In this document: in pieces, positions 533 to 21,677 of the stretch
Numbering within the stretch: position 1 is the first letter of the stretch
How the letters are laid out: each line of letters begins with the position of its first letter
Source: Streptococcus halotolerans
Lineage (GTDB): Bacteria; Bacillota; Bacilli; Lactobacillales; Streptococcaceae
Assembly: GCF_001598035.1 (NCBI RefSeq)
Contig: NZ_CP014835.1
Coordinates: 310,001-374,000 of the forward strand
Length of the DNA: 64,000 nt
Direction of reading: 5' to 3'
The notes under the pieces: generated by a model
Databases searched by the model: none
The model's input: only the letters and a program-made list of their open reading frames with translations
What the model was told of the DNA's origin: nothing
Translations under genes and position numbers: made by a program

Positions 533-560
533 ATTTTAGCATAAGTGATAAGATTATCAA
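533..560 (-). promoter_or_regulatory. Promoter of the AraC-family gene
   Basis: On the minus strand an extended -10 (TGC-TAAAAT, 541-533) follows TTGATA (560-555) with a 16-bp spacer, about 25 bp before the regulator's ribosome site. Its -35 overlaps the distal box (557-568) of the direct repeat serving the divergent glucosidase. Binding there could autorepress the regulator, as in the classical AraC arrangement (inference). Confidence 0.5.
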
Positions 561-620
561 AGGATAGTATCAGTATTTCAAAGGATAGTGTTAGCTGTTA
601 AACAGATGTCTTTATATAAT
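557..620 (+). promoter_or_regulatory. Promoter P1: 21-bp-period direct repeat plus -10
   Basis: Two identical boxes TCAAAGGATAGT lie at 557-568 and 578-589 (period 21 bp). A perfect TATAAT lies at 615-620, 37 bp after the start of the second box. No good -35 is visible, as expected for an activator-dependent promoter. It drives the GH1 gene at 653. It is the best-conserved of six such promoters in the window and lies beside the AraC-type gene. Confidence 0.75.
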
Positions 621-652
621 AACATTATCATTAAAATGAACGAGGTAAACAA

Positions 653-2089
653 ATGACTAACATATTTCCAAAAGAGTTTCTCTGGGGCGGTGCAACCGCA
701 GCCAATCAATTTGAAGGGGCTTATAACCTTGATGGCAAAGGATTGTCCGTTCAAGATGTGACCCCAAAAGGGGGTATGCCTGCTAAAGCTGGAGACCATA
801 ATCCTATCATTACAGATCAACCGACAGAAGATAACCTCAAATTGGAGGGGATTGATTTCTACCATCGTTATAAAGAAGATATTGCCCTTTTTGCCGAAAT
901 GGGTTTTAAAGTATTTCGATTGTCGATTGCTTGGTCACGGATTTTCCCAAATGGTGACGAAACAGAACCCAACGAAGCAGGTCTTCAATTTTACGATGAT
1001 GTCTTTGATGAGTTAGCCAAATACGGTATTGAGCCCTTGGTAACTCTATCTCACTATGAAACGCCCCTCCATCTAGCTCGCAAGTACAACGGATGGGCTA
1101 GTCGTGAATTGATTGGATTTTATGAAAATTATGTCCGTACTGTCTTCACACGTTATAAGGATAAAGTTAAGTATTGGTTGACGTTTAATGAGGTCAATTC
1201 GGTTCTTCATGCCCCCTTCATGTCTGGCGGGATTGCCACACCAGTTGAGGAGTTATCCAAACAGGACTTATACCAAGCGGTGCACCACGAGTTGGTTGCC
1301 TCTGCTTCAGCGACAAAAATCGCTCATGAGATTAACCCTGATTTCAAAGTAGGTTGTATGGTGCTTGCGATGCCAGCCTATGGGATGACCTCAAATCCTT
1401 TAGATCAATTAGCTGTACGTGAATTTACAAACCAAAACTATCTCTTCTCGGACATTCATGCGCGTGGGAAATACCCTAATTACATCAAGCGTTATTTCAA
1501 AGAAAATGACATTGAGATTACCTTTGCTGAGGGAGATGAGGAATTGTTAACTCATACCGTTGACTTTATTTCTTTCTCATACTACATGTCTGCTGTTGCA
1601 GCGCACAATCCTGAAGAGTATCAAACAGGTCGTGGTAATATTTTGGGAGGCATCTCTAATCCTTATCTAGAAGCGTCTGAGTGGGGCTGGCAAATTGACC
1701 CAGTAGGTCTTCGTTTAGTGCTAAATGATTTCTATGATCGCTATCAATTGCCACTCTTTATCGTAGAAAATGGTCTGGGTGCTAAGGATGTGTTAGTAGA
1801 CGGTCCTGATGGACCTACTGTTGAAGATGATTATCGGATTGACTATCTTCAAAAGCATCTAATCCAAGTGGCCGAAGCTCTCCAAGATGGCGTGGAACTA
1901 TTGGGTTACACCACATGGGGACCAATTGATTTGGTGTCAGCGTCAACGGCACAGCTCTCCAAACGTTACGGCTTTATCTATGTTGATCGCAATGATGATG
2001 GAACAGGAAGCTTGGCTCGCTATAAGAAAAAATCATTTAACTGGTACAAAGAAGTGATTGCAACGAACGGTCAATCCTTATTCCGGTAA
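653..2089 (+). CDS. 6-phospho-beta-glucosidase, GH1 (copy 1)
   Basis: A 478-residue cytoplasmic GH1 enzyme, normal length for the family, that hydrolyses PTS-imported phosphorylated beta-glucosides to glucose-6-phosphate and the aglycone or sugar. The N-terminal [16 protein letters not shown] signature is present. The acid/base Glu is in LTFNE (about E180) and the nucleophile is in IVENG (about E372). The C-terminal LVSAS...[10 protein letters not shown] stretch carries the Ser/Lys/Tyr set that binds the 6-phosphate and separates phospho-glycosidases from plain ones. It stands alone between promoter P1 and an intrinsic terminator, divergent from an AraC-type regulator. It is one of five GH1 paralogues in 20 kb. 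The exact disaccharide or aryl-glucoside preference cannot be read from sequence. Confidence 0.93.
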
Positions 2090-2097
2090 TTCTTCCA

Positions 2098-2136
2098 AAA
2101 AACTCTCTAGCTTCTCTCCAGACTAGAGAGTTTTTA
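2098..2136 (+). terminator. Intrinsic terminator after GH1 copy 1
   Basis: A ten-base stem (AACTCTCTAG, 2101-2110, with CTAGAGAGTT, 2123-2132) and a T run, nine bases after the stop codon. Confidence 0.85.
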
Positions 2137-2278
2137 GCTAATCAGAATTATGTTACAATGAAGTAAGCGTTTTATGAAATAGCTATATTTTTTGATGATA
2201 AATGCTATGTTTATTGTCAAGTCATCGTCATTTAACGATCGACAAAGTGACCTTTGCGTCTTAATTAGGAAGGATCTT

Positions 2279-19308: not shown

Positions 19309-19339
19309 GACATTATTAAATCATGAAAGAGGTTTCAAA

Positions 19340-20779
19340 ATGACAAAATTAAAAGCATTTCCAGAAGGTTTTTTATGGGGTGGAGCAACTGCTGCCAATC
19401 AAGTAGAAGGTGCTTACGATGTAGATGGTCGTGGACTTGCTAATGTTGATGTGGTGCCAATTGGTGAGGATCGTTTTCCAATCATTGCCGGTCAAAAGAA
19501 AATGTTTGATTTTGAAGACGGTTATTTCTACCCAGCTAAAGGATCGATCGATTTTTACCACAATTACAAAGAAGATATTGCTCTCTTTGCAGAAATGGGC
19601 TTTAAAACCTACCGCATGTCAATCGGTTGGACACGTATTTTTCCTAAGGGTGATGAGTTAGAGCCAAATGAAGCTGGTCTTCAATTCTACGAAAATGTTT
19701 TTAAAGAATTGCGCAAGTACGACATCGAACCATTGGTAACCATCACGCATTTTGATTTTCCGATGCATCTGATTGAAAAGTATGGCGGCTGGCGTAATCG
19801 CAAGGTTATCGAGTTCTACGAGCGTCTTTGCAAAGTCATCTTCAACCGTTACAAAGGTTTGGTTAAATACTGGCTAACCTTTAATGAAATTAACATGATT
19901 CTTCATGCACCATTCATGGGAGCAGGATTGTATTTCGAAGAAGGCGAAAACCAAGAACAAGTCAAATACCAAGCAGCTCACCATGAGTTGGTAGCGTCAG
20001 CTATTGCCACTAAAATCGCTCATGAAGTGGACCCAGAAAATAAGGTAGGTTGCATGCTAGCAGCTGGACAATACTATCCAAACACAGCACACCCACGTGA
20101 TTATTGGGCAGCAATGCAGGAAGACCGTGAGAACTATTTCTTCATTGATGTGCAGGCGCGTGGGGAATACCCAAACTACGCTAAGAAGAAATTTGAGCGT
20201 CTCGGTTTAGACATCGAGATGACAGACGAAGATTTGGCCATACTGAAAGAACATACGGTTGATTTCGTGTCATTCTCATACTATTCAAGTCGTGTGGCTT
20301 CAGGTGATCCAGAAGTCAATGAAAAAACAGAAGGAAATATTTTTGCTTCCATCAAAAATCCGTATCTAGAAGCTTCTGAATGGGGCTGGCAAATTGATCC
20401 ACTAGGTCTTCGCATTACGCTAAATACCATCTGGGATCGTTATCAAAAACCAATGTTTATCGTGGAAAATGGCCTCGGAGCGATTGATACCCCTGATGAA
20501 AACGGCTATGTGGCAGATGACTATCGCATCGATTACCTTCGTTCACATATTGAAACCATGAACCAAGCCATCAACGAAGATGGTGTTGAGCTTCTTGGCT
20601 ATACGACTTGGGGTCCGATTGACCTTGTCTCAGCAGGAACAGGAGAAATGAAAAAACGTTACGGTTTCATCTATGTTGATCGTGATAATCAAGGGAATGG
20701 AACCCTCAAACGCTCTAAGAAAAAATCATTTGACTGGTATCAAAAAGTGATCGCTTCAAATGGGGTAGATATTGATTAA
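19340..20779 (+). CDS. 6-phospho-beta-glucosidase, GH1 (copy 5)
   Basis: A 479-residue GH1 enzyme with acid/base Glu in LTFNE (about E183), nucleophile in IVENG (about E376) and phosphate-site block [20 protein letters not shown]. The start is ATG 19340 with AAAGAGG eight bases upstream. The longer frame begins at a TTG (19286) that lies upstream of the P5 -10 and cannot be on the transcript. It shares LHAPFM after the acid/base Glu with copy 1, so copies 1 and 5 may be closest in substrate (inference). Confidence 0.92.
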
Positions 20780-20800
20780 ATCAACTGAATAAGGTCACGT

Positions 20801-20838
20801 CAAACACTAGTTTAAGGTTATTAGACTAGTGTTTTTTC
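20801..20838 (+). terminator. Terminator after GH1 copy 5
   Basis: AACACTAGT (20803-20811) pairs with ACTAGTGTT (20824-20832), followed by T6. Confidence 0.85.
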
Positions 20839-20971
20839 ATCTGAGATGGTCCATCATTATGAATTTTCTCGCGATGATAACTCTTGTCAGGCCATTTTTT
20901 GAGGAGAGGAAATTCAATTTTTTTTTCATGTTATAATAGAACAATATCATTTTTTAGGAAAGGTTTTGGTT

Positions 20972-21619
20972 TTGTTTCATAAGGTTAATCGTTTGTCTCA
21001 AATATTGTTTTATATGATTGGTGTTTTCCTGCTTGGTTTGGGGATTACTCTGTGTACTAAGACTTCTCTTGGAGTATCGCCAGTAGTTTCTCTAGCCTAC
21101 AATGCTTCAGTTATTTTCAATATTCCAATTGGAATAACCAGCTTTGCTAACTTCGTTCTTTGTATCTTCATTCAGTTTTTACTGTTGGGAAAATCATTTG
21201 ATCAATTTAGGATCTTCCAGGTAGTGGCTAGTTTTCTAACTAGCTTTGTCATGCAGTTTTTCGACAATACTCTCATAATGCCAGAGAGTATGGGCATGCG
21301 ATTTGTTTGGCTCTTAGCAGGAGTTGTGATCACAGGCTGTGGTGCCTCTTTGAGTGTTGCTATGCGCTTCATTCCAAACCCTGCTGATGCACTCGCTCAT
21401 ACGATAGGTCAAGTAACGGGTAAAGGATTTGGAACGGGGAAAAATCTCATGGACCTTGTTTACATCAGTCTTTCCTTGTTTTTATCCTTCGGAACTGGTC
21501 AGGGATGGCTTGGCGTTGGTATTGGAACACTGATTGCCAGTGTAGTAACAGGTCGAGTGATAGCTATCTCTTTTCCAACATTTGAAAAACTATATGAGAA
21601 ACAAGTCGCAAAAACATAG
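20972..21619 (+). CDS. YczE/YitT-like integral membrane protein
   Basis: About 215 residues with five to six membrane helices. The opening GVFLLGLGITLCTKTSLGVSPV matches the YczE-like group (related to YitT), whose members are of unknown or transport-related function. No ATG start exists: the candidates are TTG 20966 and TTG 20972, and I chose 20972 because AGGAAAGG is eight bases away. A TATAAT at 20932-20937 may be its promoter. Its 3' end overlaps the first box of P6. Confidence 0.75.
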   Translation: MFHKVNRLSQILFYMIGVFLLGLGITLCTKTSLGVSPVVSLAYNASVIFNIPIGITSFANFVLCIFIQFLLLGKSFDQFRIFQVVASFLTSFVMQFFDNTLIMPESMGMRFVWLLAGVVITGCGASLSVAMRFIPNPADALAHTIGQVTGKGFGTGKNLMDLVYISLSLFLSFGTGQGWLGVGIGTLIASVVTGRVIAISFPTFEKLYEKQVAKT

Positions 21620-21677
21620 GATAGTATTATTATTTCAAAGGATAGTGATGGTTTCATAGCGATCTTTTCTGTATAAT
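21614..21677 (+). promoter_or_regulatory. Promoter P6: direct repeat plus -10
   Basis: Boxes ACATAGGATAGT (21614-21625) and TCAAAGGATAGT (21635-21646) are 21 bp apart. The second is identical to both boxes of P1. A perfect TATAAT at 21672-21677 starts 37 bp after box 2. It precedes HAD copy 3 and marks the right end of the island. Confidence 0.75.

Follow-up and report, generated by a model that had tools for sequence, protein, structure and literature searches.

A stretch of 64,000 nucleotides from Streptococcus halotolerans (assembly GCF_001598035.1, contig NZ_CP014835.1, positions 310,001 to 374,000; the whole stretch is called the window below) contains six promoters, P1 to P6, that share a repeated box and a -10 hexamer in one exact layout and that precede genes for GH1 or Cof-type HAD hydrolases. 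With a probability of roughly 0.88, these sites are operators of BglC, an activator of the AraC/XylS type whose gene diverges from GH1 copy 1. A sequence-only reading of the window had suggested an AraC-type beta-glucoside regulon under this divergent gene, and the target genes, the co-occurrence of regulator and operator, and the orthology of the regulator to BglC support the suggestion. The regulon is judged to be real and its operator well defined, and the protein acting at the six promoters is most likely the product of the divergent AraC gene, a BglC orthologue.

Each promoter follows the arrangement box-N9-box-N25-hexamer, and direct reading agreed base for base with the coordinates and sequences that had been given for the boxes and -10 hexamers. 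Second boxes were classed as weak by matrix score; the GH1 and HAD genes other than GH1 copy 1 come from the open reading frame (ORF) list together with a GH1 search or a family match. The features, in window coordinates, are as follows.

1..507, minus strand: 5' part of the regulator gene (bglC-type, AraC/XylS; 309 amino acids, full extent genome 309578-310507; Pfam; 66% identity to the BglC assigned to S. mutans)
557..568, plus strand: P1 first box, TCAAAGGATAGT, ahead of GH1 copy 1 and between it and the divergent regulator gene
578..589, plus strand: P1 second box, TCAAAGGATAGT
615..620, plus strand: P1 -10, TATAAT
653..2089, plus strand: GH1 copy 1, bglA-type 6-phospho-beta-glucosidase (NCBIfam PRK09593, over cut-off)
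4645..4656, plus strand: P2 first box, TCATAAGATAGT
4666..4677, plus strand: P2 second box, TCATGCAATGCT, weak
4703..4708, plus strand: P2 -10, TACAAT
4738..6222, plus strand: GH1 copy 2
15357..15368, plus strand: P3 first box, TCCCACAATAGT
15378..15389, plus strand: P3 second box, TCATATCAAAAG, weak
15415..15420, plus strand: P3 -10, TATAAT
15442..16284, plus strand: HAD copy 2, Cof-type HAD-IIB hydrolase
16279..16290, plus strand: P4 first box, TCGTAAGATAGT
16300..16311, plus strand: P4 second box, TCGTAAGATAAG
16337..16342, plus strand: P4 -10, TAAACT
16377..17855, plus strand: GH1 copy 4
19245..19256, plus strand: P5 first box, TCATAGCATAGT
19266..19277, plus strand: P5 second box, TCTGATGAAACA, weak
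19303..19308, plus strand: P5 -10, TATAAT
19340..20779, plus strand: GH1 copy 5
21614..21625, plus strand: P6 first box, ACATAGGATAGT
21635..21646, plus strand: P6 second box, TCAAAGGATAGT
21672..21677, plus strand: P6 -10, TATAAT
21717..22559, plus strand: HAD copy 3, Cof-type HAD-IIB hydrolase

For GH1 copy 5, the ATG at 19340 is a likelier start than the listed TTG at 19286, because that TTG falls within the promoter.

The six-promoter pattern exceeds chance. With up to two mismatches allowed, ATAGTATCA-N42-TATAAT matched the window six times, precisely at P1-P6, where 0.37 matches were expected, and none of 100 dinucleotide shuffles attained six. The genome, scanned as one contig of 2,182,100 bases containing the window, gave seven matches carrying no more than one mismatch: five window promoters, a site at 1745387 on the minus strand (no mismatches) upstream of a series of VOC (glyoxalase-type), DUF1349 and Cof-type HAD genes, and a site at 132381 on the plus strand (one mismatch) upstream of a GH1 gene. 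These seven support the expectation that genome matches would concentrate on carbohydrate genes. P4 differs from the pattern at two positions, a level that is noisy because it returned 23 genome matches versus 10 for the reversed pattern. A matrix built from P1-P6 (R1) recovers these promoters by construction and its other matches lie near noise; we therefore relied on the fixed pattern, on shuffles, and on a second matrix (R2) made from 56 promoters of other species, without any sequence of the S. halotolerans genome. With R2, P1-P6 scored 30.4-48.2 in the window, and the maximum over 30 dinucleotide shuffles was 5.8. When 150 of 2589 first-look candidates in the genome were scored, P1-P6 and the two promoters outside the window took ranks 1-8 (38.9-19.6 bits) and the ninth candidate reached 14.8 bits, a ranking that is not fully independent, since likeness to the eight promoters of this genome guided the choice of the 56 used for training.

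The operator is present at five of the nine GH1 genes of the genome, and three of its 13 full-length Cof-type HAD genes lie behind it, one of them as the third gene of its series. GH1 copy 3 (window 7630-9120) is without an operator, unlike copies 1, 2, 4 and 5; elsewhere, a cel-type EIIB gene occurs in the same stretch in seven of the 11 relatives' loci holding copy 3. Two other candidates were judged to be chance matches, one at 674580 on the minus strand (16.4 bits with R1), which is absent from the 23 R2 matches, and one at 1065953 on the minus strand (9.7 bits with R2), where ATAGTATCA is intact but TCTATT stands in the -10 position and the target does not resemble the others.

The same element recurs in other streptococci. 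A matrix of the eight promoters was run on 75 loci around regulator homologues (1,458,804 bases, some species being present twice) and returned 83 sites at a score of at least 19 versus 0 in the reversed control, and 97 versus 2 at a score of at least 13; the 97 sites comprised 82 distinct sequences. Selection by score, -10 hexamer and distinctness gave 58 promoters, and removal of two from a near relative (L079) left the 56 used for R2. The cross-species consensus is TCATAGGATAGTATCA, followed after N5 by a second copy resembling TCATARRATARTGTTAG and, after N20, by TATAAT, with a box longer than 12 bp; in a few species the -10 is placed 1 bp further away. The proposed 21-bp direct-repeat period held: when the first 16 bases were compared with copies shifted by k = 8-42, identity in P1-P6 was maximal at k = 21 (10.3 of 16, mean over k 4.6), and the 56 promoters of other species, a set chosen by likeness to those of S. 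halotolerans, gave 9.0 of 16 at k = 21 (mean 4.7). The -35 elements were poor, as the sequence-only reading had also stated, with best TTGACA matches (spacers 16-18) of only 3, 3, 2, 3, 1 and 2 of 6 in P1-P6; the 56 other promoters averaged 2.89 versus 2.59 for shuffled sequence, and 11 of them matched at four or more positions. Class II activators of the AraC/RhaS/XylS kind bind direct repeats spaced by two helical turns, with the proximal repeat extending to the -35 region. The half-site arrangement of this class was found here: the direct repeats are about 21 bp apart and the proximal one touches or overlaps the -35 region, second-box columns 22-38 ending 20 bp ahead of the -10. The likeness extends to the combination of a ligand-binding domain with an AraC-type DNA-binding domain; the box sequence differs.

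The divergent AraC-type gene noted at 1-507 proved to be the 5' portion of a gene that is complete beyond the window and has a GTG start. Its product matched the Pfam models AraC_binding (60.1 bits), HTH_18 (83.9 bits) and HTH_AraC (78.2 bits), all over cut-off, and this protein places Streptococcus thoraltensis (89%) and S. hyovaginalis (84%) as the nearest named relatives. The 66% identity quoted above covers residues 6-296 and is to the regulator of genome G203, in which four licT/bglP primers published for S. mutans (PMC1489936) all match exactly; assignment of G203 to S. mutans rests on the full primer set, because genome G127 also matches two of the four. The gene order of G203 (bglA, regulator on the opposite strand, bglP) is also that of S. 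halotolerans, and the G203 bglA promoter has the operator with its -10 one base further away. On the strength of this identity, the gene order and the primer-based assignment, we regard the regulator as a BglC orthologue. A passage of PMC1489936 reports BglC as a positive regulator of bglA, a phospho-beta-glucosidase gene, in S. mutans.

Boxes were also observed at the start of the regulator gene. Among 72 distinct stretches covering 150 bp upstream and 90 bp inside the gene, a box read towards the divergent gene occurred in 57 (versus 3 reversed), namely in 46 of 49 where the regulator was at least 59% identical, 11 of 15 at 51-58% and none of eight below; some of these, as in S. halotolerans, are the first box of the divergent pair. 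A permissive criterion for boxes adjoining the regulator -10 gave 16 of 71 in its reversed control and was replaced by a stricter one; under the strict test, a box directly followed a -10-like hexamer of the regulator gene in 26 of 71 stretches, versus 1 of 71 reversed. A single box over the -10 or start of bglC, present in about a third of the relatives' regulator promoters covered, perhaps indicates autorepression. The same boxes, and the location of P1 between divergent genes, could be taken to mean that the boxes serve repression, by BglC or some other protein, with induction by release. This is improbable, since at the targets the boxes are placed at the -35 region or further upstream and accompany poor -35 hexamers, which suits an activator, and since the reported action of BglC on bglA is positive.

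Sites distant from the regulator were picked non-randomly among the matches listed, 33 from places away from the regulator gene (L161-L193) and another seven (L154-L160) from genomes lacking BglC. For 32 of the first 33, the top-scoring site lay upstream of a gene matching the GH1, HAD or phosphoglycerate mutase (PGM)-type proteins of this genome by BLAST, and L170 alone had no such gene; PGM-like genes, named by eye, are among the targets in some relatives. A regulator of the CelR kind (PRD/EIIA-type) is located in the same cluster (window 11094-13085), and the six sites might be operators of this PRD-type activator instead of BglC. However, YTTTCCWTAWCAWTWAGGAAAA, which we take to be the CelR site, has a single window match, with 3 mismatches, at 10635-10656 before a cel EIIB gene (5 of 100 shuffles also match) and none at P1-P6. 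Operators also occur in many regulator neighborhoods without a labelled CelR homologue, allowing that CelR may sit elsewhere in those genomes. According to PMC3616900, CelR (BglG-type) and CelQ (ROK) regulate cellobiose genes in streptococci; both belong to protein families other than that of BglC. We regard a CelR operator at P1-P6 as very improbable.

Across the genus, presence of the operator goes with presence of the regulator, including among genomes that bear GH1 genes. In 147 Streptococcus genomes, taken from their shared handles as the same set for the regulator, operator and GH1 searches, with some match-free genomes absent from the listings, 86 had a regulator homologue (E<=1e-40) and 83 had an operator (E<=0.001). 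Where the homologue was at least 59% identical, 42 of 43 genomes had the operator; the figure was 28 of 29 at 51-58%, 3 of 14 at 46-50% and 10 of 61 where no homologue reached E<=1e-40. Of the 147 genomes, 112 carried a GH1 gene of this type; among these, the operator occurred in 69 of the 70 with a homologue of at least 51%, versus 9 of the 42 others (12 with a 46-50% homologue, 30 with none). After removal of 22 genomes holding a training promoter in the fetched stretch, 48 of 50 BglC genomes had the operator. It is hardly credible that the likeness is mere copying of one promoter along with duplicated genes: the GH1 targets form one paralogous set and the HAD targets another, and near-identical promoters are common to related species, yet GH1 and HAD are unrelated families with the same operator, the operator follows the regulator even within GH1-bearing genomes, and the 58 promoters conserve the first box and -10 columns whereas columns 43-58 hold only 0.01-0.31 bits, a contrast partly favored by matrix-based selection.

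Several observations weigh against assigning the sites to BglC, as does the dependence built into the R2 ranking. The second boxes of P3 and P5, called weak in the sequence-only reading, were so (6.4 and 4.6 bits, versus 19.6 bits in P1), and that of P2 was weak as well (6.9 bits); because among the 58 promoters the second copy shows, on average, more degeneracy than the first, weak second boxes of this sort are common. Four of the nine GH1 genes in the genome had no operator match in the R2 scan. Fisher p-values for the co-occurrence are too small, because the genomes share ancestry. Nine of the 42 GH1-bearing genomes counted as being without BglC nevertheless show an operator match; five of them, with no BglC-like protein (G038, G074, G084, G086 and G129; L154-L157 and L160), have strong sites before GH1 copy-5-type genes, and the ten operator-positive genomes without a homologue at E<=1e-40 yielded only distant AraC proteins (best E 3.6e-19). 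Strong operators in BglC-less genomes would mean either that the regulator was lost recently or that something else reads the sites. Conversely, G091 (64%) and G027 (53%) have the regulator with no operator match in a search whose filters lose weak matches. Finally, the activator role of BglC is known from a single passage of PMC1489936 that itself cites an earlier paper. In two further genomes, G100 (L158) and G128 (L159), the operator is kept one base shorter before the -10 and is not upstream of a GH1 copy-5-type gene; a GH1 match of this type was not found in either at E<=1e-120, and these operators look like relics.

The uptake gene bglP (locus L001, where position 2550 is genome 302550) is preceded by stretches that, judged by eye, resemble a promoter, a ribonucleic antiterminator (RAT) and a terminator. 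The RAT-like stretch differs by 1 base in 31 from that of the bglP assigned to S. mutans. The R2 genome scan gave no operator match at the bglP leader, and because bglP has this leader and no operator, uptake and enzymes appear to be under different switches. None of the six ORFs listed beside bglP (120 amino acids or longer), the only place where licT was sought, is licT-like.

Under assignment of the sites to BglC, a beta-glucoside, perhaps in phosphorylated form, would occupy the cupin domain of BglC, and the liganded protein would bind two direct repeats of about 17 bp set 21 bp, or two helical turns, apart. Because the promoter-near repeat appears to reach the -35 region, BglC would replace the missing -35 contact and recruit RNA polymerase to a good -10, as in class II activation. 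The predicted targets are phospho-beta-glucosidases and Cof-type HAD phosphatases, with PGM-like genes in some relatives; antitermination would control uptake through bglP, and BglC would control the enzymes, a division reported for S. mutans. Binding of BglC to a single box over the -10 or start of its own gene should repress it. The sites, their spacing, recurrence, target genes and co-occurrence with the regulator are observed; binding, inducer, activation and autorepression we infer. More tentatively, and with somewhat more doubt than belief, we propose that one motif and one protein have opposite effects depending on where the box lies, with a pair that ends at the -35 region activating the enzyme genes and a single box over the -10 or start shutting down the regulator gene, in a genus-wide feedback circuit with uptake through LicT antitermination; operators kept without BglC hint at a second reader.

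The arrangement resembles the S. mutans bgl regulon (licT, bglP, BglC, bglA) in its AraC/XylS-type regulator, the divergent bglA with bglP on the other side, the RAT-like leader before bglP and the operator in the bglA promoter. S. halotolerans differs in having eight promoters, including those of HAD phosphatase and VOC-DUF1349-HAD genes, and in that bglP and the regulator are separated by genes that, by eye, look esterase-like and GH2-like. BguR of S. pneumoniae likewise regulates beta-glucoside genes; it differs in being, according to PMC3585215, a GntR-type repressor that acts on a 20-bp palindrome and has one target operon. Among the matches listed in our literature search, none described a BglC operator or a wide BglC regulon, and an earlier computed motif in RegPrecise or the PMC3616900 supplements is possible. 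Regulator and mechanism are of a known kind; what that search did not show is the operator and the wide reach of the regulon.

BglC is a named activator for which the matches listed gave no defined binding site, and a candidate site is now supplied. This site predicts BglC targets in most of the sampled streptococci having BglC and ties HAD phosphatases of unassigned substrate to beta-glucoside use. It also points to a way in which a genome carrying many copies of phospho-beta-glucosidase genes may switch several of them on together.

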